64,000 bases of DNA from Ornithinibacillus caprae (GTDB lineage: Bacteria > Bacillota > Bacilli > Bacillales > Amphibacillaceae): assembly GCF_009728145.1 (NCBI RefSeq), contig NZ_WOCA01000002.1, positions 310,001 to 374,000 on the forward strand. Reading direction: 5' to 3'. The position numbers and the translations under genes were made by a program. Below the pieces are notes generated by a model. The model worked only from the letters and a program-made list of their open reading frames with translations, had not been told where the DNA came from and did no database searches. Numbering within the stretch: position 1 is the stretch's first letter; every line of letters starts with the position of its first letter. Positions 27,519 through 46,958 of the stretch are shown here, one piece after another.

Positions 27519-28490
27519 ATGGAAATGAGCGATTATATGTTAAGTTGGGAAGATCGACGACTAATGGTTAAAGTCGCTATGTTGTATTATTTTGAAGGTT
27601 GGACACAAGCAGAGATTGCCGCAAGAAATAATGTCTCACGTCCGGTGATTTCTAAGCTACTGAATACAGCTAAAAAAGAAGGCATAGTCGAGATATACAT
27701 TAAAGATGAAACATTCCATACGGTGGAATTAGAACAGAAAATAATTAAGAAATTTGGATTAAAGGAAGTAATTGTTGTATCAACTGCCGGTTTTGCACCG
27801 GAAATGGCTAAGCGTCAGCTTGGTAAAACAGGTGCTTCGTATATAGCTAATCATACTAAGGAAGTAAAAAGCTTAGGAATATCATGGGGAACAACACTTC
27901 TATCTTTAGTGGCAGAGTACCCATATGAACACAAAGAAGATGTCCATATTGTTCCGATAGTAGGTGGAATGGGGAGTGAATATGTTCATCTTCATTCCAA
28001 TCAACTTGCTTTTAACTTAGCACAGAAGATGAATACTACTTGTTCTTACCTCTACGCTCCAGCGATGGTAGAGTCAAATGATTTAAAAGAACGGCTCGTT
28101 AGTTCCAAAGATATTGCCCATGTTTTGGAAGAAGGTAAGAATGTCGATATGGCAGTAGTTAGTATTGGAAATCCATTTAAAGGGGCAACGATGGAGAAGA
28201 TCGGTTATCTTGGTCCAGATGACCTTGCGTCATTACGTAAGGCTGGTGCAGTAGGAGATATAAGCTCTCGTTTCTATGATGCAGTTGGAAAGGAATTAGA
28301 CCATCCTTTAAATCAGCGAGTTATTGGATTAAACTTAGATGATATAAAAAAGATCCCTGAAGTTGTTGGAATTGTAGAAGGCTCTTACAAGCTAGAAAGT
28401 ATTGAAGCCGCACTTCAAGGTGGTTATCTTGATGTATTAATTACTGATGATCGTACAGCTCAAGAATTAGCAGATAGTCATAACTTATAA
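27519..28490 (+). CDS. SorC/DeoR-type sugar-binding transcriptional regulator (first paralog)
   Basis: Regulator of 323 residues: N-terminal helix-turn-helix (WTQAEIAARNNVSRPVISKL, about residues 28-47) and a long sugar-phosphate-binding domain (about 60-320) with VPIVGGMGSEYVHLHSN and VSIGNPF motifs. It is closely related to the protein at 31666-32613. The start is uncertain: ATG 27519, 27525 or 27537 are all in frame and none has a strong ribosome site; alignment with the paralog favours 27537. It is convergent to the dehydrogenase-glpD operon and probably responds to the same phosphorylated polyol as the paralog, or to a related one. Confidence 0.88.
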   Translation: MEMSDYMLSWEDRRLMVKVAMLYYFEGWTQAEIAARNNVSRPVISKLLNTAKKEGIVEIYIKDETFHTVELEQKIIKKFGLKEVIVVSTAGFAPEMAKRQLGKTGASYIANHTKEVKSLGISWGTTLLSLVAEYPYEHKEDVHIVPIVGGMGSEYVHLHSNQLAFNLAQKMNTTCSYLYAPAMVESNDLKERLVSSKDIAHVLEEGKNVDMAVVSIGNPFKGATMEKIGYLGPDDLASLRKAGAVGDISSRFYDAVGKELDHPLNQRVIGLNLDDIKKIPEVVGIVEGSYKLESIEAALQGGYLDVLITDDRTAQELADSHNL

Positions 28491-28706: not shown

Positions 28707-29747
28707 TTATTCACAAGGTTTAACCACACACTTCAACCCTTCTTTACGGAGTGCAGTTTGAAATGCTTTTTCTGTATCCTTCAAAGGGAAGGTATGGGTA
28801 ACAAAAAATGAAAAATCAATTAGTCCTTCATCAATCCATTTCACGGATTCTACATGTAAATCCCTCGGTGCCCCATGTGTTCCAACTACCTTCAAATGTT
28901 TATAAATAAAGTGATTCGTATTAATAGGTATCTCGTCTAGATGTTTAATCCCAGCAAAATAAAGGACACGGCCACCAGTTCTTGCAAGTTCCAGTGCTTC
29001 CTTTTGAACCTCTGCAGAAGGAGCAGTGACAATAACCACATCTGCTCCCAAGCCATTCGTTTCAGCCTTAACCTTTGTAAATGTATCTGAATTACTTGGA
29101 TCAATCACTATATCAGCACCAATATCTAATGCCAATTGTTGTCTGGGCTTAGAGCGTTGAATGGCGATTACTTTTGCTGCTCCCATTCGCTTTGCTGCTG
29201 CCATGTACATGCAACCTATCGCACCTGCACCATAAACTACGACTGTATCACCTGCATTGATCTCAACTTCACGTAACCCATTTAACACACACGCAAAAGG
29301 TTCGGATAAACTTGCTAGTTCGTATGAGGTATTGTCAGAAATTTTAAGAATGGAACCATACTCTACAAACTCTCTAGGAAGGACCACAAATTCTGCAAAA
29401 CCACCATCCACCTGGTATCCAATGGACTCTCCTTTGACACACAAATGTCCCTCGTTTTTTTGACAATATAAGCAAACTCCACAAGGGATGTGAGCCCAAA
29501 GCGTTACCCGGTCCCCTTTGTTAAATCGTTTCACGTGAGATCCCGTTTCAACAATCTCACCAGCGATTTCGTGTCCAGTTACTCTTGGATAATCGATTCG
29601 TTTATCGCTATTTTGATAGATACGTAGATCGGAGCCACAAACCCCTGTAGCATATATCTTCAACAGCACTTCATGCTCAGAAATAGTGGGATATTTTCGT
29701 TCTTGGTATTCCAAAGTTTCCTTACCTGTTAGTGCAACAACATGCAT
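28707..29747 (-). CDS. Zinc-dependent medium-chain alcohol/polyol dehydrogenase
   Basis: NAD(P)-dependent dehydrogenase of the MDR superfamily, 346 residues, resembling sorbitol/threonine-type enzymes. Catalytic-zinc residues are C37 (GVCGSD), H59-E60 (TGHEIAGE) and the downstream SEPFAC glutamate; the structural-zinc cysteines are in PCGVCLYCQKNEGHLC; the Rossmann motif is VYGAGAIGCMY near 170-180. ATG at 29747 follows AGGAGGAG, 11 bases after the GlpD-like stop, so the two form one operon. Likely substrate is a polyol or its phosphate linked to the PTS cluster next door, but this cannot be fixed from sequence. Confidence 0.88.
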   Translation of the reverse strand: MHVVALTGKETLEYQERKYPTISEHEVLLKIYATGVCGSDLRIYQNSDKRIDYPRVTGHEIAGEIVETGSHVKRFNKGDRVTLWAHIPCGVCLYCQKNEGHLCVKGESIGYQVDGGFAEFVVLPREFVEYGSILKISDNTSYELASLSEPFACVLNGLREVEINAGDTVVVYGAGAIGCMYMAAAKRMGAAKVIAIQRSKPRQQLALDIGADIVIDPSNSDTFTKVKAETNGLGADVVIVTAPSAEVQKEALELARTGGRVLYFAGIKHLDEIPINTNHFIYKHLKVVGTHGAPRDLHVESVKWIDEGLIDFSFFVTHTFPLKDTEKAFQTALRKEGLKCVVKPCE

Positions 29748-29758
29748 ACCTTCTCCTC

Positions 29759-31411
29759 CTATTCTGATTTAAAATTCAACGCTTTTTTAATTAGATAATG
29801 CATTTTTCGTTTCTCTTCTTCTTTTTGCACGTTATTCCAATTCAATAAAGAGGATGCCTCACTTGACACAATATCTAATGTACGTTTCACTTTTTCCAAA
29901 TCAAATAATAGATAGCTAGTTCTACGATCATAAAAGTCAGATAGAGTTGAAACCATTTCGTGTTCTACCGTGTATTTTAATTCACCTAAGATGTTTCGTT
30001 GCTTTTTTTCCATATCTGGGCGATAAGAAGCTATGGTTTGCAGGACTTTACCTGTATTTGATCCGTAACGCATTACATAATTATTTACTTCTTCTTCTGT
30101 TAAATCGAGTTCCTGATAGTAACCGTGAATACGATTTGCATAGGAATTCATCTCGCCTGCATGGTTAAATTGAGAGCCAGATAATTTTATTTTATCGGTT
30201 TTCGTAGGTTGGATTAACCTGCTTTCTTTTTTCTCAATGTATTGTAGAACGCGCTCAGCCATTTTACGATATCCTGTCAGTTTTCCACCAGCTATCGTTA
30301 CTAACCCACTATCAGATTCGAAAATCTCATCATGACGTGATAACTCTGATGGATTATTTCCATCCTCACCAATTAAAGGACGAATGCCAGCCCAACTAGA
30401 AACAACATCATCAACACTAAGGTCTAGGGATGGGAACATATCTTTTAAACAACCAAGTAAATAATGTACTTCAGATAGTTTCACATGAATATCATCCATA
30501 TCTCCGTAATAACGTGATTCCGTAGATCCAACATATGTGCGATTTCCAACTGGAATGACAGCTATCATTCTGCCTTTATGTTGAAAGTAGATAGAAGATT
30601 TGACTGGTAGTGAGTTATGGTCAAACACAATGTGGATTCCCTTGGCAAGGATCATGTATTTCCCTGAAACGGGACGATCTTTCCTCCGAACAACATCTAC
30701 CCATGGACCTGCAGCATTAATAATATGTTTAGCATAAGCTGTAAAGATATTTCCTTTAACATGGTCTTTCACTACGATCCCTTTTACCTTATTGTTTTCG
30801 TCTTTTAAAAACTCAGTCATTTCTGCATAGTTAAGGACAACAGCACCTTTTTCTGCAGCAGTTTTGGCAACCTCCATGGTTAATCGACTATCATCCGTTC
30901 GGTATTCCACATATTCACCACTACCTTTGACTGTTTTTTCATTGAATAATGGTTCATTTTGCAATGTTCTCTTCTTATTATAAATTGTATGACGTTCTTC
31001 CTTTTTAACACCTGCTAGTCGATCATAGAGCGTGAGCCCAGCTTTTAGTGTTACTAGATTATAAGATTCCTTTTTAATTAAAGGAAAATTCATTTTGATT
31101 GGATAGACTAAATGTAGGGCATTATTATAAACAATTTCACGCTCTGAACCAGTTTCTTTTACTACTGGAAAGTCAAAGTTTTGTAAGTATTTAAGTCCAC
31201 CATGAATTAACTTACCTGATCGGCTACTTGTACCAGAAGCAAAGTCATGTCGTTCAACTAAAGCGACCTTTAATCCTCTTGTTATTGCATCTAATGCAAT
31301 TCCACTACCAGTAATTCCGCCACCAATTACGATGAGATCAAAATTTTCTTGTTCCATTTGTTTGATGGTTTGCTGACGATTTAACGTTGAAAAAGAAGTA
31401 TTACTAGTCAT
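29759..31411 (-). CDS. GlpD-family FAD-dependent glycerol-3-phosphate (polyol-phosphate) dehydrogenase
   Basis: Flavoprotein of 550 residues. The FAD dinucleotide motif VIGGGITGSGIALDA begins near residue 29, the second conserved motif TSSRSGKLIHGG spans 61-72, and the GlpD C-terminal domain follows. GlpD feeds electrons from glycerol 3-phosphate into the quinone pool; relatives such as EryB oxidise erythritol 4-phosphate. Position 66 is Gly where GlpD normally has Thr (SSRSTKL). It is not in the glpF-glpK operon at 61842 but is divergent from a glucitol-type PTS cluster, so it may act on another polyol phosphate. Standard GlpD function remains possible. Confidence 0.85.
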   Translation of the reverse strand: MTSNTSFSTLNRQQTIKQMEQENFDLIVIGGGITGSGIALDAITRGLKVALVERHDFASGTSSRSGKLIHGGLKYLQNFDFPVVKETGSEREIVYNNALHLVYPIKMNFPLIKKESYNLVTLKAGLTLYDRLAGVKKEERHTIYNKKRTLQNEPLFNEKTVKGSGEYVEYRTDDSRLTMEVAKTAAEKGAVVLNYAEMTEFLKDENNKVKGIVVKDHVKGNIFTAYAKHIINAAGPWVDVVRRKDRPVSGKYMILAKGIHIVFDHNSLPVKSSIYFQHKGRMIAVIPVGNRTYVGSTESRYYGDMDDIHVKLSEVHYLLGCLKDMFPSLDLSVDDVVSSWAGIRPLIGEDGNNPSELSRHDEIFESDSGLVTIAGGKLTGYRKMAERVLQYIEKKESRLIQPTKTDKIKLSGSQFNHAGEMNSYANRIHGYYQELDLTEEEVNNYVMRYGSNTGKVLQTIASYRPDMEKKQRNILGELKYTVEHEMVSTLSDFYDRRTSYLLFDLEKVKRTLDIVSSEASSLLNWNNVQKEEEKRKMHYLIKKALNFKSE

Positions 31412-31480
31412 CCTGATATCCTCCTTTACGAGATTTTATACAAACGTTCAACATAAGATCAAATGTAATATATCATTTAA

Positions 31481-31509
31481 AGTATATCTTTTGTAATTTT
31501 TTTCGTCAA
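31481..31509 (-). promoter_or_regulatory. Promoter of the glpD-like/dehydrogenase operon
   Basis: On the minus strand TTGACG (31509-31504), a 17-base spacer and TATACT (31486-31481). Just downstream at 31460-31469 lies CAAATGTAAT, the half-site that is repeated as palindromes in front of the PTS genes, so the operon may share their regulator. Confidence 0.7.
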
Positions 31510-31591
31510 TAAAGGGTTTTCATTATAAGCATTATAATTATTAGTTGAGTAAGAAAACAAAATTATAATGAAATTTTTTACAAAAATAATT

Positions 31592-31605
31592 TGTAAACGA
31601 TTTCA
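31592..31605 (+). promoter_or_regulatory. CcpA cre-like site
   Basis: TGTAAACGATTTCA matches the Bacillus cre consensus TGWAARCGYTWNCW at 13 of 14 positions. It lies upstream of the second SorC-type gene, just before a possible -35 TTGAAG at 31608, suggesting catabolite control of the regulator. Confidence 0.55.
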
Positions 31606-31640
31606 ATTTGAAGAATTTATGTTAATATGTTATCTATCTG

Positions 31641-31652
31641 TTACATATGTAA
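31641..31652 (+). promoter_or_regulatory. Short operator-like palindrome before the second SorC-type gene
   Basis: TTACATATGTAA is a perfect 12-base palindrome ending just before the GGGGGAG ribosome site. It resembles the compact form of the ACAAATGTAA sites near the PTS genes and may mediate autoregulation. Confidence 0.45.
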
Positions 31653-31665
31653 AGGGGGAGAAAGA

Positions 31666-32613
31666 ATGGATTTAGATGAACGTCGTTTACTCCTAAAGGT
31701 TGCAAAACTATATTATTTCGAGGGATGGACACAGACAGAAATTGCGAAAAAAGTGAATAAATCTAGGCCGATCATTTCCAAATTACTAAAGCAGGCAAAG
31801 GAAAAGAAGATAGTAGAGATTTATATAAAAGATGGTTCCGTTCATACCGTTCAATTAGAAAGAATGATAGAAAAAGAGTATGGATTAAAAGAAGCAATTG
31901 TAGTATCTACTTCAAATAGTGGTCCAGAAATGGTTATTCGTAAACTAGGAAAAGCGGCTGCTGATTATATCACTAAAAAGCTTGACCAGATTGAATCTGT
32001 TGGAATTTCATGGGGGAAATCCGTTCATGCTGTTGTGGAGGCAATTAAATTTCAAGAAAAGAAGCATATACATTTAACACCATTAATTGGCGGGATGGGC
32101 CAAGAATACGTTCATTATCATTCCAATCATCTTACCTTCCAAATGGCGCAAAAACTAAACACGACTTCTGCTTATCTATATGCACCAGCAATGGTAGAAA
32201 ATGAAGATCTCAGAAATCATATCATCCATTCTAAGGATGTGTGTGACGTATTAACGAAAGGAAAACAGGTAGATTTAGCTATTGTTGGTGTAGGGAATCC
32301 TAACGTTGGTTCTACACTTACAGAAATGGGGTATTTAAGTGAAAGTGATCAGCAAAGTTTACTAGAGTCAGGGGCAATAGGCGATATAAACTCTAACTTT
32401 TATGATCAAAATGGAGAGGCAGTAATACATTCGTTAAACGAGAGAACAATTGGTATCAATTTACAAGATATGAAGGATATCCCAGAGGTAATAGCGATTG
32501 TAAGTGGAGCGCATAAAGTGCAAGCATTACATGTAGCCTTAAAGCGAGAGTACGTAACTACAGTGGTGTTAGACGATAGTACAGCTATAGCACTTACAAA
32601 TTTAAATAATTAA
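31666..32613 (+). CDS. SorC/DeoR-type sugar-binding transcriptional regulator (second paralog)
   Basis: Regulator of 315 residues with the same architecture as the protein at 27519: helix-turn-helix WTQTEIAKKVNKSRPIISKL near residues 24-43 and a sugar-binding domain with TPLIGGMGQEYVHYHSNH and VGVGNPN. The start ATG at 31666 is behind GGGGGAG; a longer reading to 31627 covers the promoter region and is rejected. It immediately precedes the gutM-PTS operon and is divergent from the glpD-like operon, the usual position of a pathway-specific regulator. Its effector is probably the phosphorylated PTS product. Confidence 0.9.
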   Translation: MDLDERRLLLKVAKLYYFEGWTQTEIAKKVNKSRPIISKLLKQAKEKKIVEIYIKDGSVHTVQLERMIEKEYGLKEAIVVSTSNSGPEMVIRKLGKAAADYITKKLDQIESVGISWGKSVHAVVEAIKFQEKKHIHLTPLIGGMGQEYVHYHSNHLTFQMAQKLNTTSAYLYAPAMVENEDLRNHIIHSKDVCDVLTKGKQVDLAIVGVGNPNVGSTLTEMGYLSESDQQSLLESGAIGDINSNFYDQNGEAVIHSLNERTIGINLQDMKDIPEVIAIVSGAHKVQALHVALKREYVTTVVLDDSTAIALTNLNN

Positions 32614-32627
32614 ATATATAAAAAACA

Positions 32628-32656
32628 TTGACAATAACTTGAAAGCGCTTTATCAT
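32628..32656 (+). promoter_or_regulatory. Promoter with embedded cre site for the gutM-PTS operon
   Basis: Perfect -35 TTGACA (32628-32633), 17-base spacer, -10 TATCAT (32651-32656). The spacer contains TGAAAGCGCTTTAT (32640-32653), a 13/14 match to the CcpA cre consensus, placed so that bound CcpA would block RNA polymerase. Confidence 0.82.
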
Positions 32657-32659
32657 ATT

Positions 32660-32692
32660 TTTACAAAGGTAATAAATAATTACTATTGTAAA
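32660..32692 (+). promoter_or_regulatory. SorC-type operator palindrome before gutM
   Basis: TTTACAAAGGTAAT and ATTACTATTGTAAA form an imperfect inverted repeat around a five-base centre, directly downstream of the -10 box. Spacing and sequence parallel the perfect palindrome at 35064-35096. Confidence 0.65.
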
Positions 32693-32709
32693 AAAAGGGG
32701 GGTAAAACA

Positions 32710-33102
32710 GTGTGGGGGAATTTTATATTAATTTTTGCTTTAATCTGGGGATTACAGTTTCTAATGACTCAATTACAGGTGAAACACTATCGTTCACATA
32801 TTAGAGAGTTTACTAAAAGGGAGTCTGGATATTTAGGGACTGGATATTATAAAAAAACCTTAGGTACTGGAGCGCTTGTTTTACTAGTATGTGATGAACA
32901 GTTGCAAATAGTTGAAGCAAAAGTTATGAAAGGTATTACGGTTTTTGCTAGATTTAAAGATCGCAGAGAGTTAATAGGGAAAAACTTATTGGAAAGTAAA
33001 AATTCTGAATTTTTAAGTAATAAAGAAAAGAACGCTTTATATGGTGCAATTCAAATGATTGAAAAAGAACTTAACAAAGAAAAAGCTCAAGTGTCAGTTT
33101 AG
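32710..33102 (+). CDS. Glucitol operon activator GutM/SrlM family protein
   Basis: Protein of 130 residues with an N-terminal hydrophobic segment (about 3-20) and a GutM domain containing GYLGTGYYKKTLGTGALVLL. GutM proteins accompany glucitol-family PTS genes and modulate their expression. GTG start at 32710 is preceded by GGGGGG. First gene of the PTS operon. Presence of the N-terminal span suggests membrane association. Confidence 0.88.
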   Translation: MWGNFILIFALIWGLQFLMTQLQVKHYRSHIREFTKRESGYLGTGYYKKTLGTGALVLLVCDEQLQIVEAKVMKGITVFARFKDRRELIGKNLLESKNSEFLSNKEKNALYGAIQMIEKELNKEKAQVSV

Positions 33103-33183
33103 AAAGGTACGGTGAAGAGGGAAGACTTGATATTTTATGGACACTAGAACTAGATATTGTAAAAAAAGAAAGGGGAATGAAGA

Positions 33184-33714
33184 ATGGATTTCTTAATTTC
33201 AGTAGCTGAAGGCTTTATCGGTATGTTCCAAGAAGGCGGAGACACATTTATGGGATTAGTAACTGGTATCATTCCGATGCTTGTTGTCTTAATCACTGCA
33301 GTAAATGCACTAATTAAATTTATTGGAGAAGAACGAGTTAATCGTTTTGCACAAAAATGTACAAAGTATTTCATTTTGCGTTATACAGTGTTCCCGTTTT
33401 TAGCAGTATTTTTCTTAACAAACCCAATGTGTTATACATTTGGTCGTTTCTTACCAGAAAAACAAAAACCTGCATTCTATGATTCTGCTGTATCATTTGT
33501 ACATCCAATTACAGGATTATTTCCACATGCGAACCCTGCAGAGTTATTCGTTTATATGGGGGTTGCTGCAGGTATTACAGAACTAGGGTTATCACTTGGA
33601 CCATTGGCACTTCGATTTCTACTAGTTGGTATCGTAGTAATGTTAATAAGAGGATTAGTAACTGAAATCATCACTGATCGCATGCTAAAAGCAAGAGCAA
33701 AAAATGTAGCATAA
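33184..33714 (+). CDS. srlA: PTS glucitol/sorbitol-family EIIC (IIC2, SrlA-like)
   Basis: Membrane protein of 176 residues with three or four spans, matching the separate IIC subunit of glucitol PTS. Typical stretches are IPMLVVLITAVNALIKFIGE near residues 30-49, FFLTNPMCYTFGRFLPEKQK near 78-97 and the FVHPITGLFPHANPAELFVY loop. ATG at 33184 follows AAAGGGG. It pairs with the IIBC protein downstream. Family members carry glucitol or other polyols; the real substrate here is open. Confidence 0.92.
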   Translation: MDFLISVAEGFIGMFQEGGDTFMGLVTGIIPMLVVLITAVNALIKFIGEERVNRFAQKCTKYFILRYTVFPFLAVFFLTNPMCYTFGRFLPEKQKPAFYDSAVSFVHPITGLFPHANPAELFVYMGVAAGITELGLSLGPLALRFLLVGIVVMLIRGLVTEIITDRMLKARAKNVA

Positions 33715-33743
33715 TCGTTTAGAAATTAAAGGGAGGCGTACAC

Positions 33744-34799
33744 ATGAGCGAATATAAAGCTGTCAGAGTAAATAAAGGTCCTTCTGGTTGGGGTGGACCG
33801 TTAGTTATAAAACCTACTGATGAACAAAAATATATTATTTCAGTAACTGGTGGAGGAATTCACAGGGTAGCACAGGAACTAGCAGACCGTACTGGTGGAA
33901 TTGCTATTGACGGTTTTGAAAAATCTGTTCCCAAAGAACAAATTGCTGCTGCAGTTATTAATTGTGGTGGTACTGCACGTAGTGGTGTTTATCCAAGAAT
34001 GGGTGTTAAAACTATAAACACGTTTAGTAACTCACCATCTGGACCATTACTGAAATTTATTAATGAAGGAAACTTTGTATCAGGTGTTGAAAGTGCAAGT
34101 CAATTTGAAGAACTTGATGCAGAAGAAGCAAGTGCAGCAGCAGTTGAAGAATCGCTTGAAGAACATGACCGTTTAGATAAAAATGTTGCAAAGCAATTAA
34201 AAGAAGAAGCGAAAGCAAAAGTTACTGAGCAAAAGTCTGCAAATGAAAATGGAAAAAAGAAAAATCCAATCATGCGTTTCATAGAAGTACTAGGAAATAA
34301 GGTCGGTAACGTGGTAAGTATCTTCTTCCAATCTGGACGAGATACCATTGAAACAGTTATCAAGAATATTTTACCATTCATGGCATTTGTAAGTGCGTTA
34401 ATGGGTATCATTACATTTACTGGTATTGGTGACTTTATAGCTGAACTAGTTGCACCAATGGCAACTAGTTTAATAGGTATGTTGATTCTATCCCTAGTTG
34501 CAGCAATTCCAGTTATTTCACCATTGCTTGCTCCTGGTGCAGTTATTGCGCAGGTAGTTGGTGTGTTAATTGGGGTAGAAATTGCAAACGGTAATATCCC
34601 GCCACAAATGGCATTACCGGCATTATTCGCAATCAACCCACAAGTAGGTACTGACTTCGTACCAGTTGGTTTAACACTTGGAGAAGCAGAACCTGAAACA
34701 GTTGAAGTTGGTGTACCAGCCGTATTATTCTCTAGGCTAATCACTGGTCCAATAGCAGTGGTAATCGCATACTTTGCAAGCTTCGGATTATATAGCTAG
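33744..34799 (+). CDS. srlE: PTS glucitol/sorbitol-family EIIBC (SrlE-like)
   Basis: Fusion of the IIB domain (about residues 1-115; phosphocysteine C74 in [12 protein letters not shown]) and the N-terminal IIC domain (about 175-351, several spans), joined by a charged, low-complexity linker rich in Glu, Lys and Ala (about 117-170). ATG at 33744 follows GGGAGGC. It passes phosphate from the IIA protein to the incoming polyol. The IIA gene is separated by a 387-base interval with its own promoter. Confidence 0.93.
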
Positions 34800-34880
34800 T
34801 AGGTTAATAGATTGTTATTCAACGACATACTGTGACGTTAGGAAAGGTATTCAAATGTTTACAAACATAGAAAGATCTTG

Positions 34881-35001
34881 ATGCACGAGGCGGAGGAGCA
34901 TAGTAAAAATGTATCCACATTTTCTGTGACTGATGTATGAATGAGGAATATTTCTTGTCCCCGAGCGAAGTTTAAAATGTATTGAACTGCGCCTCGAGCA
35001 T
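34881..35001. other. Structured non-coding interval between srlE and srlB
   Basis: ATGCACGAGGCG (34881-34892) pairs with CGCCTCGAGCAT (34990-35001) apart from one A-A mismatch, closing a 120-base domain. Inside are smaller hairpins such as AAAATGT/ACATTTT near 34907-34924. The inside has higher GC patches (CGGAGGAGC, TCCCCGAGCG) than the surroundings and no frame. It could be a small non-autonomous element, an RNA or an mRNA stabiliser; I do not recognise it. Confidence 0.4.
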
Positions 35002-35036
35002 AATGTACGTATTCTAAAAAATAAAATTCTTTTTCA

Positions 35037-35065
35037 TTGACTATTCAGTGAAATCGTTTTACAAT
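35037..35065 (+). promoter_or_regulatory. Promoter of the srlB-oxidoreductase unit
   Basis: TTGACT (35037-35042), 17-base spacer and TACAAT (35060-35065). The operator palindrome starts at its last base. Confidence 0.75.
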
Positions 35066-35096
35066 TACAAATGTAACTAGTCGTTACATTTGTAAT
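35064..35096 (+). promoter_or_regulatory. SorC-type operator, perfect palindrome
   Basis: ATTACAAATGTAAC and GTTACATTTGTAAT are perfect 14-base inverted arms around TAGTC, overlapping the -10 region and start site of the promoter at 35037. It is the clearest copy of the ACAAATGTAA motif found across this cluster and fits a repressor site for one of the two SorC-type proteins. Confidence 0.75.
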
Positions 35097-35186
35097 TTTT
35101 TTATTTAAAAATTAATATACTACTTAAATATAAAGGAGAAAATTAGGCTTTACAAAGCCAGGATTAATTACGAGGGAGCGATATAT

Positions 35187-35555
35187 ATGAGTAATATATT
35201 TATAGAATTAAATGTAGTTGAAGTAGGGGAAGAAGCATCACTAATGTTAGACGAAGGTATGATGATTTTATTTAACGATACAGTTCCTGCAGATCTTAAA
35301 GGGATTGCAGTAGTACACGATGCTAGTAACATCACTGATGAAATCAAAGTTGGCGACAAATTAGAAATTGATGGTCATTCATTTGAAATATTGTTTGTCG
35401 GTGAAAAAGCAAATGAAACGCTAGGTGAACTTGGGCATGCAACATTCAATTTTGATGGGGAAAAGCATTCTGAATTACCAGGTACTATTTGCTTAGAAAA
35501 GAAAGCGATACCAGAAATTAAAACAAATTCAGTTATTACCTTTCACAGAGGATAA
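35187..35555 (+). CDS. srlB: PTS glucitol/sorbitol-family EIIA (SrlB-like)
   Basis: Cytoplasmic EIIA of 122 residues; the phosphorylated histidine is H43 in AVVHDAS, and the GTICLEKKAIPEIKTNSVI stretch near the C-terminus is typical. ATG at 35187 follows GAGGGAG. It is transcribed from its own promoter together with the oxidoreductase gene 30 bases downstream, physically linking the PTS with that enzyme. Confidence 0.92.
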   Translation: MSNIFIELNVVEVGEEASLMLDEGMMILFNDTVPADLKGIAVVHDASNITDEIKVGDKLEIDGHSFEILFVGEKANETLGELGHATFNFDGEKHSELPGTICLEKKAIPEIKTNSVITFHRG

Positions 35556-35585
35556 TTTATATAAAACAACTAGGGAGTGGAGAAA

Positions 35586-36875
35586 ATGCTAAATATCAAT
35601 AGAAAACTAGCTAGATTAGAAAAAGAAGGTTCGTACATTAAAGTTGGTTTAGTTGGTGCTGGACAAATGGGAAGAGGGATGATCTCCCAAATTGAAAGCA
35701 TGAAAGGAATGCGTGTTGTCATTACTGCTGATTTAGTCGTTGACAATATTACTAATGCTTATAAACATGCTGCAATAAATCCATCTGATATCGTGGAGAC
35801 AAATGATAGAGAGGCAGCTTCTAGAGCAGTTCGAAATAACAATGTAGTTGCTACTACAGACTCTAAATTAGTTACATCATTACCTGAGGTTGATGTAGTT
35901 GTAGATGCAACAGGTGTACCAAATATAGGTGCTGAAATTGCCTGGGATTCGATCCTAAACAATAAACATATTGTTATGTTAAACGTTGAAGCAGACGTAA
36001 CAGTTGGTCCATTACTTTACAAAATGGCAAATGCAAGTGGTGTTGTTTATACTGGTTCTGCTGGTGATGAGCCTGGAGCAATTATGGAATTATATGACTT
36101 TGCAGATGCAATGGGATTCGAAGTAGTTGCATTAGGTAAAGGGAAAAATAACCCACTTAATCTAGAAGCTAATCCAGATTCAGCTGCAGAGGAAGCAAAA
36201 AGAAAAGGTTCAGCGCCAAAAATGCTAGCTTCTTTCCAAGATGGTACGAAAACAATGGTGGAGATGAACGCTGTAGCTAATGCTACTGGATTTTTACCAG
36301 ATCAACCAGGAATGCACGGTTTTGAAGGTACAGTAAAAGAACTACCTGGAATCTTCATTGAAAAAGAAAAAGGTGGACAGTTGAACGGTAGAAAAATTGT
36401 GGATTTCGTTAATGGAGTTGCACCTGGTGTATTCGCAATAATTGCTTCTGATAAAGAAGAGGTAAATGCGGAAATGAAATACTTAAGTATGGGAAATGGC
36501 CCAAACTATGTGTTATATCGTCCATATCACTTAACTAGCTTGGAAACTCCACTATCTATTGCGAAAGCATATCTAGATAACGAAGCAACAATCGCGCCAT
36601 ACTGTGGCTTACAAGGAGAAACTGTTGCAGTTGCTAAGAGAGACCTGGAAGTTGGTGAGAATCTAGATAGTATTGGTGGATTTACAGTATATGGTAAGCT
36701 TCTAAAAGCAACTGTAGCAAGAGAACAAAACGCATTACCTCTAGGTTTAGTTGACCATAATGTTGTAATGAAAAAGTCAATTAAAAAAGGTGAAGTGATC
36801 TCTTACGCTGATGTAGAACAAACAAAAGAATCTACTATTTGGAAATTACGAGCAATGCAAGATAGAGAATTTTAA
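35586..36875 (+). CDS. SAF-domain NAD(P)-dependent oxidoreductase, DXR-like (DRL) family candidate
   Basis: Protein of 429 residues, usually labelled homoserine-dehydrogenase-like. The Rossmann motif VGLVGAGQMGRGM (about 20-32) starts an NAD-binding domain, GEP motif TGSAGDEPGAIMELY lies near 160, and a SAF domain occupies about residues 330-410 (AVAKRDLEVGENL; VMKKSIKKGEVIS). This architecture is that of the DRL proteins, one of which (Brucella) interconverts 1-deoxyxylulose 5-phosphate and methylerythritol 4-phosphate; many homologs are uncharacterised. ATG at 35586 is eight bases behind AGGGAG; GTG 35577 is less likely. Co-transcribed with PTS EIIA, it probably acts on the imported polyol phosphate in place of the absent SrlD-type sorbitol-6-phosphate dehydrogenase. 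Confidence 0.78.
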   Translation: MLNINRKLARLEKEGSYIKVGLVGAGQMGRGMISQIESMKGMRVVITADLVVDNITNAYKHAAINPSDIVETNDREAASRAVRNNNVVATTDSKLVTSLPEVDVVVDATGVPNIGAEIAWDSILNNKHIVMLNVEADVTVGPLLYKMANASGVVYTGSAGDEPGAIMELYDFADAMGFEVVALGKGKNNPLNLEANPDSAAEEAKRKGSAPKMLASFQDGTKTMVEMNAVANATGFLPDQPGMHGFEGTVKELPGIFIEKEKGGQLNGRKIVDFVNGVAPGVFAIIASDKEEVNAEMKYLSMGNGPNYVLYRPYHLTSLETPLSIAKAYLDNEATIAPYCGLQGETVAVAKRDLEVGENLDSIGGFTVYGKLLKATVAREQNALPLGLVDHNVVMKKSIKKGEVISYADVEQTKESTIWKLRAMQDREF

Positions 36876-36887
36876 GGAATAAAGATC

Positions 36888-36929
36888 GCCTCCACACTTC
36901 CAAATAAATCAGTGTTGGGGGCTTTGTTT
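36888..36929 (+). terminator. Terminator after the SAF-domain oxidoreductase gene
   Basis: GCCTCCACACT pairs with AGTGTTGGGGGC (one G-U and one bulge) around a 12-base loop, followed by TTTGTTT. It separates the srlB-oxidoreductase unit from the dehydrogenase-complex genes, at least partly. Confidence 0.75.
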
Positions 36930-36960
36930 ACGCAAAACATACTTCTACGTTAGATTATTG

Positions 36961-36970
36961 CAAATGTAAT
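36961..36970 (+). promoter_or_regulatory. Single SorC-type half-site before the E1 alpha gene
   Basis: CAAATGTAAT repeats the operator half-site of 35064-35096 in the short leader of the dehydrogenase-complex operon. No clear second arm is present, so binding would be weaker or cooperative with another site. Confidence 0.4.
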
Positions 36971-37004
36971 CATATAGAACGAATTTAAAGGGAGATGTAA
37001 AAAA

Positions 37005-37985
37005 ATGAAAAAAATGAATGTCCCAATTAAAATAACGGATGATAAATTAGTAGATTTATACAAAGAAATGTGGCTAATTAGATATTTTGATGAAAAGGTT
37101 GATGAATTTTTCGCAAAAGGTATGATTCATGGTACAACTCATTTAGCAGTAGGTCAAGAAGCAAGTGCATCTGGTGTATGTGCGTTACTAGATGTTGAGG
37201 ATAAAATTACAAGTACACACCGTGGACACGGACATTGTATTGCAAAAGGTGCAACTGCTGACAAGATGATGGCAGAACTTTTCGGTCGTACAACTGGTTA
37301 TTGTAAGGGGAAAGGCGGATCTATGCATATCGCGGATGTTGACATGGGGAACCTTGGAGCAAACGGAATTGTAGCAGGTGGAATTCCTTTAGCAGTAGGT
37401 TCAGCTTTAACTGCACAAATGAAAAAACAAAAATACGTAACGGTTTGTTTCTTTGGTGATGGTGCAACAAACGAAGGAAGCTTCCATGAAGCAGTAAACC
37501 TAGCATCTATTTGGGATTTACCAGTGGTCTTCGTTTGTGAAAATAATCAATACGGAATGTCCGGTCCGGTAAAGGATATGGTGAATGTAGAAGATATCGC
37601 AACTCGCGCACAAGCTTATGGAATACCTGGAGTGGTGGCTGATGGTAACGATATCGTAGAAATGATGAATGTGACAGATGAGGCGGTTGAGCGTGCTCGT
37701 AAAGGTGAAGGTCCAACATTAATCGAAGCTAAAACCTATCGTTGGAAAGGACATTCAAAGAGTGATGCGAAGAAATATCGAACTCGTGAAGAAGAAAAAG
37801 AGTGGCGTGCAAAAGACCCAATCAAACGTTTCAAATCGCAATTAGTAGAATCAGGGCTTTTAACAGAAGAAAAAGCAGAAGAAATTCGTTTAGCAGCAAA
37901 GAAAGAAATCGAAGACGCAGTTAAATTTGCAGAAGAAAGTCCAATGCCAACATTAGATGACTTACTAACTGACGTTTATGCATAG
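37005..37985 (+). CDS. Thiamine-dependent dehydrogenase E1 alpha (acetoin dehydrogenase-like)
   Basis: E1 alpha subunit of a 2-oxoacid/acetoin dehydrogenase complex, 326 residues. The thiamine-diphosphate motif begins at GDG (151-153) and ends at ENNQYGMS (about 179-186); the HRGHGHCIAKGA segment near 72-83 is typical of acetoin-type E1. Such enzymes cleave acyloins or decarboxylate 2-oxoacids and hand the acyl group to E2 lipoyl arms. First gene of an E1a-E1b-E2-E3 operon next to a polyol PTS. No acetoin regulator AcoR or sigma-54 promoter is seen. Start ATG 37005, with GGGAG ten bases upstream; ATG 37014 is possible. Confidence 0.9.
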   Translation: MKKMNVPIKITDDKLVDLYKEMWLIRYFDEKVDEFFAKGMIHGTTHLAVGQEASASGVCALLDVEDKITSTHRGHGHCIAKGATADKMMAELFGRTTGYCKGKGGSMHIADVDMGNLGANGIVAGGIPLAVGSALTAQMKKQKYVTVCFFGDGATNEGSFHEAVNLASIWDLPVVFVCENNQYGMSGPVKDMVNVEDIATRAQAYGIPGVVADGNDIVEMMNVTDEAVERARKGEGPTLIEAKTYRWKGHSKSDAKKYRTREEEKEWRAKDPIKRFKSQLVESGLLTEEKAEEIRLAAKKEIEDAVKFAEESPMPTLDDLLTDVYA

Positions 37986-37994
37986 GAGGGGTTC

Positions 37995-38981
37995 ATGATG
38001 AGAGAGATTACTTATTTAGAAGCAGTACGTGAAGCAATGAGTCAAGAAATGCGTAAAAATGATGACGTATTTATTTTAGGAGAAGATATTGGTGTTTATG
38101 GTGGAGCGTTTGGTGTGACTCGTGGGATGATTGAGGAATTTGGTCCGGAGCGTGTTCGTAATACACCAATTAGTGAAGCTGGTATTGCTGGTGCAGCAGT
38201 TGGTTCTGCTCTAACTGGTATGCGGCCTATCCTGGAATTACAGTTCTCTGATTTCATTACTATCGCCTTAGATCAGATCGTAAATCAAGCAGCTAAGATC
38301 CGTTATATGTATGGGGGGAAAGGGAAAGTTCCAATGGTTGTTCGTACTCCAAGTGGATCAGGTACTGGTGCTGCTGCACAGCACTCCCAAAGTTTAGAAG
38401 CCTGGGTAACTCATATTCCTGGACTTAAAGTGATTCAGCCTTCTACTGCGTACGACGCAAAAGGTTTGCTTAAAGCTGCAATGGATGATGATAACCCAGT
38501 AATTTTCTATGAGCATAAGTTATTATACAAAACTTCTTCAGATGTGCCAGAAGAGCAGTATAGTATTCCATTAGGTCAAGCAGATGTGAAGCGTAAAGGT
38601 ACAGATGTAACAGTAGTTGCAACTGCAATTATGGTACACCGTGCACTAGAAGCAGCTGCTGAGCTTGAAAAGGAAGGAATCAGTATAGAGGTTATTGACC
38701 CTCGTACACTTGTACCTTTAGATGAAGAAACTATTGTAAAGTCTGTATCTAAAACCGGACGTGTTGTTGTTGTTCATGAAGCGGTTAAACGTGGTGGATA
38801 TGGCGGAGAAATCGCGAGCATGATTGCAGAAAGTGAAGCATTTGATTATTTAGATGCACCTATTAAACGTCTAGGTGGTGCACCATCTCCAGTACCTTAC
38901 CATCCAGAACTTGAAAAAGCACATGCTCCACAAGTACCAGATATTATCAAGGCTATTAAAGAAACATTAAATAAGGCATAA
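37995..38981 (+). CDS. Thiamine-dependent dehydrogenase E1 beta (acetoin dehydrogenase-like)
   Basis: E1 beta subunit, 328 residues, with the family start [19 protein letters not shown], the [15 protein letters not shown] loop near 28-42 (its glutamate helps activate the cofactor), [17 protein letters not shown] near 59-75 and the C-terminal transketolase domain ([12 protein letters not shown]). It forms a heterotetramer with the upstream alpha subunit. The gene starts 10 bases after the alpha stop; two adjacent ATG codons follow AGGAGG. Confidence 0.92.
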
Positions 38982-38993
38982 GGGGGGATCATC

Positions 38994-40352
38994 ATGGCAA
39001 AAGAAGTTTTTATGCCGAAACTAAGTAGTACGATGCAGGTTGGTACCGTGCTTCAATGGTTCAAAGAAGAAGGTGATTCCGTTGAAGTTGGTGAACCACT
39101 TTTCGAAATTATGACTGACAAAATAAATATCGAAGTGGAATCCTATGAAGAAGGGATTTTACTTAAACGATACTATGATGTAGATGACGAGGCACCTGTA
39201 AATGCAGTTGTCGGATATATTGGTGAGGTTGGTGAAGAAGTACCAAATACACCGCCTGAAGTTGCTGGGGAGAAAGCAGAGGAAGATGAAAGTGCTGAGC
39301 CTTCTGTTAATGTTATTACGGATTCATCGAATGATACTTCCTTAGTTGAAGAAGTAGCTGATGAAAATGGCGGAAAAGTTCGTGCAACTCCTGCTGCTAG
39401 ACGTGTAGCTCGAGAAAACGATGTATCTTTAAGTCTAGTGTCTGGCTCTGGTCCAAGAGGTAGAGTGCACGAGCAGGATGTTGTTATGTACATTGATAGA
39501 AATAAAGTTATAGTGACACCACTTGCTGAGAAAATAGCGAAGGAATATGATGTTGATTTAAGTCAGGTTACTGGAAGCGGATCACGAGGTAAGATCGAAA
39601 AAGCGGATGTCCTAGCATTTATAGAGTCTCAGAAGGCAGCATCAAGTTCGGTTGCTCCAGCTACCGGTGAACGAGTGAAACTAAAAGGTTTACGAAAAGC
39701 AGTTGCGGATAAGATGGTGGAAAGTGTTCGTACCATACCACATGTTACGCTTACAAGTGACGTTGATATGACGAAAGTTATTGAAGTACGTAAAGCATTG
39801 TTACCTGTTATTGAAGGTCAAACTGGATACCGTTTGTCTTACACAGAAATCATAATGAAGACTGTTGCTCATGTACTTGGTAACCATCCGAAAGTAAATG
39901 CTTCGTTAGTTGAAGACGAAATCGTATACAACAATGATGTTAACATTGGTTTAGCGGTTGCAGTTGAGAATGGATTGATCGTTCCTTCTGTAGAAAAGGC
40001 AAACCAAAAAGGATTAGCTGAGCTTACAGAAGTAAGTAAAACATTAGGAGCAAAAGCTAGAGATAACAAGTTAACTCCTAATGAAATGAAAGGTAGCACC
40101 TTTACAATTAGTAACTTAGGAATGTATGCAATTGATGGTTTTACGCCAATTATCAATCCACCTGAAACAGCTATTTTGGGTGTTGGTAGAATCGTAGAAA
40201 AGCCAGTAGTGGTCGATGGTTCAGTAGAAGTTCGTCCAATGATGGTTCTAAGCCTATCTTTTGACCACCGTGCAATCGATGGGGCACCAGCTGCAGCATT
40301 CTTAACAGAAGTAAAGGAATCCTTAGAAGACCCATATAGTCTGTTGGTTTAG
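38994..40352 (+). CDS. Dihydrolipoamide acyltransferase E2 with two subunit-binding domains
   Basis: E2 core protein of 452 residues. Domain order: lipoyl domain (about 1-78, lipoylated K43 in MTDKINIEVES), acidic linker, two peripheral-subunit-binding domains in tandem (about 129-168, RATPAARRVARENDVSLSLV; and 173-212, VTPLAEKIAKEYDVDLSQVT), then the catalytic acyltransferase domain with SFDHRAIDGAP (H425, D429). Most Bacillus E2 proteins have one binding domain, so the duplication is unusual. It transfers the acyl group, probably acetyl, to CoA. Confidence 0.92.
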   Translation: MAKEVFMPKLSSTMQVGTVLQWFKEEGDSVEVGEPLFEIMTDKINIEVESYEEGILLKRYYDVDDEAPVNAVVGYIGEVGEEVPNTPPEVAGEKAEEDESAEPSVNVITDSSNDTSLVEEVADENGGKVRATPAARRVARENDVSLSLVSGSGPRGRVHEQDVVMYIDRNKVIVTPLAEKIAKEYDVDLSQVTGSGSRGKIEKADVLAFIESQKAASSSVAPATGERVKLKGLRKAVADKMVESVRTIPHVTLTSDVDMTKVIEVRKALLPVIEGQTGYRLSYTEIIMKTVAHVLGNHPKVNASLVEDEIVYNNDVNIGLAVAVENGLIVPSVEKANQKGLAELTEVSKTLGAKARDNKLTPNEMKGSTFTISNLGMYAIDGFTPIINPPETAILGVGRIVEKPVVVDGSVEVRPMMVLSLSFDHRAIDGAPAAAFLTEVKESLEDPYSLLV

Positions 40353-40367
40353 GGGGGGGGGAACGAC

Positions 40368-41744
40368 ATGAAGAACTTTGACTTAGCTATTGTTGGTGGT
40401 GGTCCTGGCGGTTATGTAGCTGCTATTCGTGCTGCAAAATTAGGTCTTTCTGTTGCACTTGTCGAGGGGGGAGACCTAGGTGGTACGTGCTTAAATCGTG
40501 GATGTATCCCATCGAAAACATTATTAAAACATGCAGAAGTTTTAAATCAAATTAAAGAAGCTGGAAGCTATGGTATAACGGTTAATGATTTTTCTTTCTC
40601 TATTAAGGAGATGATTAACCGTAAGAATAAGGTTGTTAAACAATTGAGAAGTGGAATTCAAGGACTGTTAAGACAAAATAAAATCACCCTTTATCAAGGG
40701 TATGGTACGGTTAAGGATGATAAAACAATTTCAGTCGCTACAGACAAAGGGGAAAAGAATCTTCAGGCGAAGAACGTTATTTTAGCTACCGGTTCTAAGC
40801 CTTTTGTTCCTAGTATTCCAGGGTTAGATAAGGTCACCTATCATACAAGCGATACTATTTTTGACATTGAGGAAGTACCAAATCATCTAGTAATTGTTGG
40901 TGGAGGAGTAATCGGCTTAGAAATAGCTTGTGTATTTAATAGTTTAGGTACAGAAGTTGAGGTCGTCGAAATGTCTGAACGGGTTATTCCAGCTGAAGAC
41001 CCAGATGCATCTCAGTTTTTGGCAAAACATTTGATGGCAAAAGGGATTAAAATTTATACGGATACTAAAATTACTGGTTTTAACAATGCTGGTCATACTG
41101 TTGTAAAAATGGAGAAAGAAGGTAAGAAATTAGAGCTTGTGACAGACAGTGTACTAGTTTCTGTTGGTCGTGAACCGAATGTAATTGGTTTAGACGAACT
41201 GTCAGTAGAATGGAATGGTCGATTTGTAAAAGTCGATCATAACATGAGAACTTCTGTAAATGGAATTTATGCGATCGGTGACTTAATTGGTGGATATCAA
41301 TTAGCTCATGCTGCTAGTGAAGAGGGCATTCTTGCGGTCAATCATATTCTTGGAAACATAAATAAGAAAGATATAGCTATGCCACGATGTGTATATACGT
41401 TTCCTGAGATTGCGAGTGTCGGGATGACAGAAGCCGAAGCAAAGGAAGCTGGATACAAAGTGAAGAGCCACAAAGTTGAATTAGCTGGAAATGGTAAAGC
41501 AATTGCATCAGGTGAAACTAATGGATTCATGAAGATTATTGCAGAAGAAAAATATGGTGAAATTCTTGGTGTCGTCATGGTTGGTGCGCATGTTACTGAA
41601 ATGATCAGCCAAGCAACTTCCTTTGTACATTTAGAGGGTACCGTAGAAGAAATGGAATCTATGACTTTCCCACACCCAACTGTATCAGAAGCATTATTCG
41701 AAAGTGCAGCAGCATGGTTAGAAAAAGGAATTCATTATAATTAG
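40368..41744 (+). CDS. Dihydrolipoamide dehydrogenase E3
   Basis: FAD/NAD-dependent disulfide oxidoreductase of 458 residues that re-oxidises the lipoyl arm. FAD motif GGGPGGYVAAIRAA (9-22), redox cysteines in GGTCLNRGCIPSK (about 38-50), NAD motif VGGGVIGLEIACVF near 178-191 and the C-terminal HPTVSEALFE histidine-glutamate pair. The ribosome site is part of a run of ten G residues (40352-40361) that also contains the last base of the E2 stop codon. Last gene of the complex operon. Confidence 0.94.
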   Translation: MKNFDLAIVGGGPGGYVAAIRAAKLGLSVALVEGGDLGGTCLNRGCIPSKTLLKHAEVLNQIKEAGSYGITVNDFSFSIKEMINRKNKVVKQLRSGIQGLLRQNKITLYQGYGTVKDDKTISVATDKGEKNLQAKNVILATGSKPFVPSIPGLDKVTYHTSDTIFDIEEVPNHLVIVGGGVIGLEIACVFNSLGTEVEVVEMSERVIPAEDPDASQFLAKHLMAKGIKIYTDTKITGFNNAGHTVVKMEKEGKKLELVTDSVLVSVGREPNVIGLDELSVEWNGRFVKVDHNMRTSVNGIYAIGDLIGGYQLAHAASEEGILAVNHILGNINKKDIAMPRCVYTFPEIASVGMTEAEAKEAGYKVKSHKVELAGNGKAIASGETNGFMKIIAEEKYGEILGVVMVGAHVTEMISQATSFVHLEGTVEEMESMTFPHPTVSEALFESAAAWLEKGIHYN

Positions 41745-42480: not shown

Positions 42481-43155
42481 ATGAAAATTGAGAAGAAAGA
42501 TCCGTTATACCTTCAAGTTTATGAGCAACTAAAACAATATATTTTAGAAGGAGGATGGAGTCCTGGTGAAAGGTTAGTAGAGAGTCAAATTGCTTCAGAG
42601 TTACATTTAAGTAGATCCCCAGTTCGAGAAGCTTTGCGAATTCTTGAACATGAGGGGTTAATTGTGAAAAAAGATCAGAATCTATATATTCATAATCCCT
42701 CAGTTGAAGATATTATAGAGCTTTATCAGATTCGCTTTGGGTTGGAAGCGGTTTCATGTTATTTAGCAGCGGATGTGGTTACGGAAGAAGAACTAATGGA
42801 GATGAAAGAAATTTTGGAAATGACGGAACAAAGCTTGAGAAACGGAGATTCTCAAGAAATTTATGAATGGAATACGAGGTTCCATGAGTCTATTATTTAT
42901 GCATCAAAGAATAAGCATTTAATACAAATTATGGATAGCTTAAGGTCTAAGGTTCTTTACTGTAGGAATGTGTTGATTCGTTTTGATTATGTTCGTATGG
43001 ATAATTTTTTCCAGGAACATATGAATATTTACCTTGCAATAAAAGAAGGAAGGAGGGAGCAGGCGAAAGCTCTAATGGAGGATCATATCAGTGTTGATTT
43101 AGATCGTATTTTAGGATTATTTCCTGATGGAAAATTTGAAGGGGGACTAAAATAA
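42481..43155 (+). CDS. GntR family regulator, FCD/FadR type
   Basis: Regulator of 224 residues: winged-helix domain (about 8-75, ESQIASELHLSRSPVREALR) and an FCD effector domain (about 80-215) of the type that binds metals and organic acids. ATG at 42481 follows GGAGGAC. Its stop codon overlaps the start of the TRAP binding-protein gene by one base, so it leads the operon and most likely senses the carboxylate imported by it. Confidence 0.92.
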   Translation: MKIEKKDPLYLQVYEQLKQYILEGGWSPGERLVESQIASELHLSRSPVREALRILEHEGLIVKKDQNLYIHNPSVEDIIELYQIRFGLEAVSCYLAADVVTEEELMEMKEILEMTEQSLRNGDSQEIYEWNTRFHESIIYASKNKHLIQIMDSLRSKVLYCRNVLIRFDYVRMDNFFQEHMNIYLAIKEGRREQAKALMEDHISVDLDRILGLFPDGKFEGGLK

Positions 43156-44150: not shown

Positions 44151-44157
44151 AATTCTA

Positions 44158-44190
44158 GGATACGAGATTACTACTACTAATCTCGTATCC
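44158..44190 (+). terminator. Hairpin between dctP and dctQ
   Basis: GGATACGAGATTA pairs perfectly with TAATCTCGTATCC around CTACTAC. It lacks a T-tract, so it is more likely a partial attenuator or a 3' stabiliser for the binding-protein message than a full terminator. Confidence 0.7.
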
Positions 44191-44215
44191 CATTACAAAA
44201 CGTAGGAGGGACCAA

Positions 44216-46014: not shown

Positions 46015-46032
46015 CCAAGGGAGAGGGTTGTT

Positions 46033-46941: not shown

Positions 46942-46958
46942 AGAAAGGAGTTTTTTAT

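Follow-up and report, generated by a model that had tools for sequence, protein, structure and literature searches.

A putative catabolic gene cluster in Ornithinibacillus caprae for 2-C-methyl-D-erythritol by way of 1-deoxy-D-xylulose 5-phosphate

Introduction

The described systems closest to the gene cluster reported here are the glucitol/sorbitol phosphotransferase system (PTS; SrlAEB with GutM), the acetoin dehydrogenase complex AcoABCL, an E1a-E1b-E2-E3 set that cleaves acyloins by thiamine chemistry, and the DXR-like oxidoreductase DXR-II (DRL). The sorbitol PTS of Salmonella reportedly carries methylerythritol, to go by the title of a 2004 paper by Testa. In Brucella, the role of DXR-II is the synthesis of 2-C-methyl-D-erythritol 4-phosphate (MEP) from 1-deoxy-D-xylulose 5-phosphate (DXP) (Carretero-Paulet 2013, PMC3847144), and the DXR reaction is described as reversible (PMC13001223). 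According to PMC3424233, purified pyruvate dehydrogenase (PDH) makes 1-deoxyxylulose from pyruvate and glyceraldehyde, and Escherichia coli aceE mutants make DXP. Here we describe a cluster of PTS, DRL and E1-E3 genes in a 64,000-nucleotide stretch of the Ornithinibacillus caprae genome (contig NZ_WOCA01000002.1, positions 310,001 to 374,000; hereafter the window), which we consider to be, fairly probably, a catabolic gene set that takes 2-C-methyl-D-erythritol via MEP and DXP to acetyl-CoA and glyceraldehyde 3-phosphate.

All three glucitol PTS domains (EII-GUT, EIIBC-GUT and EIIA-GUT in Pfam) and GutM are common to the window and the glucitol/sorbitol operon, but we recognised no gene for an SrlD-type sorbitol-6-phosphate dehydrogenase in the open reading frames (ORFs) of the cluster (ORF list, Pfam, NCBIfam), and the PTS is paired instead with DRL and E1-E3 genes. 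The original prediction, made from the letters of the sequence, had named this PTS, the lack of that dehydrogenase, a SAF-domain oxidoreductase and an E1a-E1b-E2-E3 set, and ORFs and family searches agree with it on each (Table 1). The oxidoreductase has the same domain architecture as the Brucella enzyme (3upl, 3upy; PMC3847144) and agrees with it at 26 of 28 diagnostic residues; whereas that enzyme serves MEP synthesis, the host of the window lacks the MEP pathway and its gene adjoins a PTS. Unlike acetoin dehydrogenase, the E1-E3 complex adjoins a PTS and a DRL gene, misses the cut-off of the acetoin E2 model and would act on a sugar phosphate. In the PDH precedent, E1 likewise handles this C2 unit together with glyceraldehyde, free or phosphorylated, but in E. 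coli it does so as a side activity or in mutants (PMC3424233), whereas here a paralogue stands by thiazole genes. A term search of the main text of PMC3847144 returned no mention of phosphotransferase, sorbitol, catabolism or genomic context, and a literature search of titles and abstract openings, with most subscription journals outside its coverage and with two of the result lists covered for the first 20 of 302 and of 144 entries, found no description of methylerythritol or deoxyxylulose catabolism or uptake.

In the proposed route, the glucitol-type PTS would import methylerythritol and phosphorylate it to MEP, a substrate suggested by the Salmonella precedent in the title mentioned above. 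The DXR-II-type enzyme, judged by its residues and context, would work in the oxidative direction, converting MEP to DXP with reduction of NAD(P)+, a reversible step that would be pulled by the cleavage that follows. The E1-E2-E3 complex would then cleave DXP, a phosphorylated acyloin, on thiamine diphosphate and pass the acetyl group via lipoate to CoA, giving acetyl-CoA, glyceraldehyde 3-phosphate and NADH.

Results

The oxidoreductase retains DXR-II residues

The product of the oxidoreductase gene matches Pfam DRL_cat at 228.6 bits and has the complete DXR-II domain set (NAD-binding, DRL catalytic and SAF). Its only PDB matches at E <= 0.001 were the two Brucella DXR-II entries (E 2.7e-104), to which it is 41.5% identical. 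The alignment bears out the predicted DRL identity: the 28 diagnostic positions, which are the sites named in the text of PMC3847144 (substrate-anchoring, dimer and further divergence sites), differ only at 351 and 413. Conserved residues (Brucella numbering) include Lys191, Lys193 and Thr229, which anchor fosmidomycin and substrate, as well as His250, Arg320 and Tyr322, the last two being dimer residues together with Glu174 and Phe178 (PMC3847144). Two control proteins (L079, L080), labelled DLO-like on 27-32% identity, fail the DXR-II residues with Asn191, Val229 and Gln320. They are separate from all other rows in the tree, in which the long Brucella branch has no firm position. In a sample of the phylum, DRL was found at E <= 1e-60 in 36 of 398 genomes.

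The host lacks the MEP pathway

An isoprenoid-biosynthetic role of the DRL was considered and rejected. Model searches with cut-offs, which placed 9, 10 and 9 of 14 control genomes above cut-off for dxr, dxs and ispH, respectively, found neither dxr-I nor ispH in the host genome (estimated to be 100% complete), nor dxs, for which nine cross-matches all scored at most 86 bits against a cut-off of 466. Since HMG-CoA synthase is present at 563 bits while dxs, dxr-I and ispH are missing, the DRL cannot serve isoprenoid synthesis in this host. Thus the separate canonical dxr for which a check had been proposed is lacking.

Among 159 genomes of the family, dxr-I was above cut-off in 52, dxs in 53, not counting the gene of G022, which is split, ispH in 50 and HMG-CoA synthase in 108. 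Of the 17 with a DRL of at least 67% identity, host included, 16 had HMG-CoA synthase and none of the three MEP-pathway genes above cut-off; the sole exception, G118, has MEP genes.

PTS, DRL and E1-E3 genes are linked across genomes

In 14/14 other searched family genomes with a homologue of at least 79% identity (L046-L059), the block is conserved in full, beginning with the first SorC regulator and ending with E3, which argues that the arrangement is not due to chance. In two more distant loci (L060, L061; DRL 67% identical), E1-E3 lies upstream of regulator-GutM-PTS-DRL, that is, on the opposite side of the PTS, showing that the link between PTS and E1-E3 survives rearrangement. Members of a second DRL clade, 45-50% identical to the window DRL, adjoin Gut PTS genes in 17/17 loci, five of which (L064, L067, L071, L072, L075) have E1-E3 genes within the fetched stretch. 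Across the 159 genomes, a DRL of either clade occurs with an E1b of at least 79% identity in 27, DRL alone in 7, E1b alone in 6 and neither in 119 (Fisher 1.8e-18, uncorrected for relatedness).

Beyond the family we turned to named loci and took the 80 best out of at least 283 that were confirmed, with short-flank loci counted in; seven of the 80 appear to overlap family genomes already counted. Gut EIIC/EIIBC was present in 65 of the 80 and at least one of E1a, E1b and E2 in 45. At DRL identities of at least 60% these numbers were 41/43 and 38/43, and between 53 and 60% they were 11/17 and 7/17. The linkage expected by the original prediction thus proved to be conserved among close relatives. 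It extends to Planococcus, Marinococcus, Salibacterium, Salinicoccus, Brevibacillus, Paenibacillus and Shimazuella and to metagenome-assembled genomes of Acetobacterium and Tepidanaerobacteraceae. On a Priestia plasmid, genes for the Gut PTS, for E1-E3 and for a SAF protein that shares 72% identity with that of the window lie within 21 kb, and a C. difficile plasmid carries E1-E3, a PTS of unspecified type and a class II aldolase gene, with no DRL in the stretch.

At two loci, on a Priestia plasmid (L278, 18308-20969) and in Ectobacillus (L160, 10001-13343), the DRL gene is followed by an FGGY kinase gene, and no Gut EIIC/EIIBC was recognised in the L160 stretch. A kinase may replace the PTS.

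The E1 of the cluster falls in a clade apart from the host's other E1 pairs

In the E1b tree, the window copy, galactitol-PTS-linked copies, DRL-linked copies and the host's copy beside thiazole genes are intermixed, and the pair L119/L128 falls inside the same wider clade. Three more E1 pairs of the host (43-48% identity) are far off, and the E1 genes of L120, L121 and L129 have SDR, TRAP or other genes as neighbours. In the E1a loop, 43 of 44 clade rows carry GHSKSD, and L130 carries GHSRSD; at the position of this Lys, L120, L121 and L129 have Arg, and the host's two other aligned copies have Ser and Thr. The Lys-rich loop is suggestive of phosphate binding rather than proof of it.

Some of these results would also be expected if the E1-E3 genes encoded a conventional acetoin or pyruvate dehydrogenase located nearby by chance: E1b is above the cut-off of an NCBIfam pyruvate dehydrogenase subfamily model, E1a falls just short of its own (387.5 against 393.85 bits), and the best PDB relatives are PDH E1 proteins. 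We regard this as very unlikely, given that the linkage survives rearrangement and crosses families, that an operator-like motif is shared with the PTS and DRL genes (see below), and that the window E1 stands apart from the host's other pairs, in a tree without a named acetoin dehydrogenase. Moreover, the acetoin-specific E2 model NF011457 matches the lipoyl part only, at 85.6 bits against a cut-off of 307.

Thiamine-thiazole operons point to DXP independently

ThiG uses DXP. In the host, another E1a-E1b pair (L081, 6372-8348; G000:C22:226.4-228.3 kb) is followed by tenI, thiO, thiG and thiF; its E1b is 90% identical to that of the window, and no E2 or E3 gene lies beside it. In three further genomes, none of which has dxs above cut-off, E1a-E1b is found downstream of thiF (G084, G083 and G113; loci L119, L128 and L130), with a thiF-E1a gap of 15 bp in G113 and of 123 and 271 bp in G084/G083, and with a thiamine pyrophosphate (TPP) riboswitch at or before the start of tenI.

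To place these cases, all 82 thiG loci of the family were fetched, some shortened by contig ends, and neighbours were counted within 5 kb on the same strand; 39 of the genomes lack dxs and 43 have it, the split copy of G022 being counted as present. E1ab lies by thiG in 4/39 and galactitol-type PTS genes in 9/39 of the former, and neither was found in any of the 43 latter, where in five loci ORF picking missed thiG and the listed matches show neither E1ab nor PTS. One or the other substitute thus occurs in 13/39 genomes without dxs against 0/43 with it (Fisher 1.8e-5, again uncorrected for relatedness). The PTS follows thiF directly in L215, L216, L220, L221, L222, L223, L229, L247 and L248, all with a TPP riboswitch, and these nine cases appear to share one origin in the tree (85/86).

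Because ThiG needs DXP and E1ab adjoins thiG in genomes without DXS, DXP is the likely substrate of this E1. Both an E1 and one galactitol-type PTS seem to stand in for DXS: the E1ab pair without E2/E3 in the four dxs-less genomes is a candidate replacement DXP synthase, and the thiF-linked PTS a candidate for the uptake of 1-deoxyxylulose for thiamine synthesis.

Galactitol-type PTS genes also lead to E1-E3

In the EIIC tree, the proteins of the thiazole operons and those of galactitol-type PTSs beside E1-E3 (L115, L116, L117, L132, L133) form one clade (95/96), which adjoins the PTS found directly after DRL in Salinicoccus; the PTSs of other E1-E3 operons (L118, L122-L126, L064, L061) fall outside it. 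The L117 run consists of a 681-aa ORF, a regulator by its likeness, seen by eye, to that of L132, followed by GatA, GatC, GatB and E1-E3. As it holds little beyond PTS and E1-E3, E1 could act directly on what the PTS delivers. L132 plus L060 brings a galactitol-type PTS, E1-E3, the Gut PTS and DRL into one cluster, so that in these gene runs both PTS branches lead into E1-E3.

A related explanation is that the complex acts on DXP while the PTS of the window imports a straight-chain 1-deoxypentitol, the DRL being a plain dehydrogenase that yields DXP. The galactitol-type PTS runs by E1-E3 in L122-L126 have SDR genes between PTS and E1-E3, joined in L122-L124 by a zinc dehydrogenase (families taken from Pfam searches with the L064 homologues), which is what a route for deoxypentitol phosphates should contain. 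We nevertheless hold it to be unlikely for the window, whose oxidoreductase retains the DXR-II residues, including those that anchor fosmidomycin, and whose PTS is of the type that the Testa title names as a methylerythritol carrier.

Class II aldolase/AraD-type genes also occur in galactitol-PTS/E1-E3 runs (L075, 17051-17698; L115; L116; L132; L279, 20263-20913), where the product is possibly an epimerase converting another deoxypentulose phosphate to DXP.

Other DRL clades have other neighbours

At loci of other DRL clades (L077, L078, L205, L206, L208, L190), the Gut PTS is accompanied by transketolase-like, class II aldolase, TIM-like, UPF0047 or fructose-6-phosphate aldolase genes, identified in part by family search and in part by likeness alone. 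Perhaps these clades convert branched polyols of the apiitol or hamamelitol type to pentulose or hexulose phosphates. ORFs of about 579 aa after DRL in anaerobes and spirochaetes were considered as DXS-like and dropped, since by eye their sequences look like PTS enzyme I.

Such neighbours, found in clade B and at more distant DRL loci, would fit a reading in which the DRL of the window acts on another branched polyol phosphate, for example apiitol phosphate giving a pentulose phosphate, while E1-E3 serves something else. These loci belong, however, to other DRL clades in the tree; relatives of the window DRL at 60% identity or more have E1-E3 genes nearby in most named loci, and the thiazole operons favour DXP, all of which makes this explanation quite unlikely.

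Layout and regulation of the cluster

The features of the cluster are listed in Table 1. EIIA and DRL are separated by 30 bp; the 387 bp between EIIBC and EIIA contain a promoter-like site and a 35-bp palindrome, and for this reason EIIA-DRL is probably a separate transcription unit. A search with Rfam gave no match above gathering score in the window.

Table 1. Features of the cluster, with positions in the window
Feature	Position	Strand	Basis and remarks
SorC/DeoR-type sugar-binding regulator, first (SorC1)	27519..28490	+	Pfam Sugar-bind; edge of conserved block; same position in 14/14 close family relatives
Zinc-dependent alcohol dehydrogenase, accessory	28707..29747	-	Pfam ADH_N/ADH_zinc_N; far below NCBIfam cut-offs (25 families shown)
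GlpD-like FAD oxidoreductase, accessory	29759..31411	-	Pfam DAO and DAO_C; below NCBIfam cut-offs (25 families shown)
SorC/DeoR-type sugar-binding regulator, second (SorC2)	31627..32613	+	Pfam Sugar-bind
Operator-like motif 5' of GutM-EIIC-EIIBC, one mismatch	32661..32673	+	Motif scan
GutM	32710..33102	+	Pfam GutM
PTS EIIC, glucitol family	33184..33714	+	Pfam EII-GUT
PTS EIIBC, glucitol family	33744..34799	+	Pfam EIIBC-GUT_N/C; NCBIfam SrlE model above cut-off
Promoter-like site TTGACT-17-TACAAT 5' of EIIA-DRL	35037..35065	+	Consensus match; such sites in the region no commoner than in shuffles
35-bp palindrome, two copies of TTACAAATGTAAC, probable operator of EIIA-DRL	35063..35097	+	Scan also lists it as terminator-like
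PTS EIIA, glucitol family	35187..35555	+	Pfam PTSIIA_gutA
DXR-II-type oxidoreductase (DRL_cat and SAF), proposed MEP to DXP	35586..36875	+	Pfam, PDB match, residues
Operator-like motif TTGCAAATGTAAT 5' of E1a	36958..36970	+	Motif scan
E1 alpha, proposed DXP-cleaving	37005..37985	+	Pfam E1_dh; GHSKSD loop
E1 beta	37995..38981	+	Pfam Transket_pyr/Transketolase_C; tree
E2: lipoyl domain, two E3-binding domains, acyltransferase	38994..40352	+	Pfam
E3 dihydrolipoyl dehydrogenase	40368..41744	+	NCBIfam lipoamide_DH above cut-off

Three mismatch-free matches to TTRCAAATGTAAY occur in the window, namely those of the palindrome and of the site 5' of E1a; the latter, a close form of TTACAAATGTAAC, lies 34 bp before the E1a start, and the copy upstream of GutM carries mismatches. 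We counted matches of at least 11/13 within 150 bp upstream in 15 genomes, leaving out the SorC2 and GlpD-like upstreams on both sides of the comparison; as the motif was shaped with the help of the window copies, the window itself is no independent case in these counts. The motif was found 5' of EIIA in 12/15, of E1a in 11/15 and of GutM in 11/15 genomes, compared with 7 of 186 other ORFs in the same stretches. One or the other of the two SorC/DeoR-type regulators probably controls PTS, EIIA-DRL and E1-E3 through this shared putative operator.

The GlpD-like and zinc alcohol dehydrogenase genes are divergent from the regulator-PTS genes. The original prediction had named as an alternative the catabolism of erythritol or threitol, with the GlpD-like enzyme as first oxidase. 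Both genes are kept in 14/14 close family relatives, and the motif is found at 11/13 or better between the GlpD-like gene and the regulator in 10/15 genomes (10/13 in the window; this stretch has no control). This alternative has become weaker, however, because the GlpD-like gene is present in 11 of the 43 named loci with a DRL of at least 60% identity (the zinc dehydrogenase gene in 6), and both are absent from the 20 kb fetched for L060 and L061. In addition, erythritol-pathway isomerases were not recognised among the cluster ORFs, and a tetrulose phosphate is no methyl-ketone acyloin; we rate it as most improbable.

Elsewhere in the window, the stretch 42481-48179 encodes a GntR regulator, a TRAP transporter, an HMG-CoA lyase (above NCBIfam cut-off) and a CoA-transferase III, which looks like a set for the uptake and breakdown of a hydroxymethylglutarate-like acid. 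A GatY-type tagatose-bisphosphate aldolase (above cut-off) and a hexose kinase of the 1-phosphofructokinase/tagatose-6-phosphate kinase kind are encoded at 23515-25413, near a SorC regulator.

Discussion

Several observations weigh against a route from methylerythritol through MEP and DXP. The second DRL clade retains nearly the same diagnostic residues and often lies beside transketolase or aldolase genes; as it sits in other contexts, the substrate does not follow from the residues by themselves. They cannot separate MEP from other branched polyol phosphates, which other DRL clades may use. At DRL identities of 45-53%, none of 20 named loci has E1-E3 genes, with Gut EIIC/EIIBC in 13. Related genomes inflate the counts, and the co-occurrence statistics are uncorrected for this. 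The GlpD-like and zinc dehydrogenase genes are not accounted for by the proposed route. On the thiazole side, 26 of the 39 DXS-less thiG genomes show neither substitute near thiG, and the E1b of L130 falls outside both the clade of the window and the L120/L121/L129 group, with weak support and a long branch. A TPP riboswitch over the host's E1ab was not found; it is located after E1b and before tenI, which puts the pair beside the riboswitch, not under it. Finally, the enzyme activities and growth on methylerythritol are predictions from the genes.

The view of the original prediction, that isoprenoid-precursor chemistry is run backwards for growth, is supported all the same: the DXR-II residues are in place, E1-E3 genes co-occur with PTS and DRL in other genomes, and the thiazole contexts point to DXP separately. 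The DXP node is well supported by genomic context, as DXP fits all of these gene contexts. More broadly, we lean towards DXP being a catabolic hub in mevalonate-using Bacillota, which methylerythritol would enter via a glucitol-type PTS and DXR-II, and deoxyxylulose (or deoxypentitols) via galactitol-type PTSs. A DXP dehydrogenase would lead from it to acetyl-CoA and glyceraldehyde 3-phosphate, and the same E1 without E2/E3 would have been recruited as a DXS replacement for thiamine synthesis.

If this is true, the scattered DXR-II proteins of Firmicutes would be catabolic and not redundant, and a role tied to sugar uptake would explain an isoprenoid enzyme that such bacteria apparently do not need. 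Methylerythritol-type tetrols are plant products and major products of isoprene oxidation. The cluster would then represent a new enzyme activity, DXP dehydrogenase, a recycling route for a plant and atmospheric polyol, and a source of DXP other than DXS for vitamin B1.

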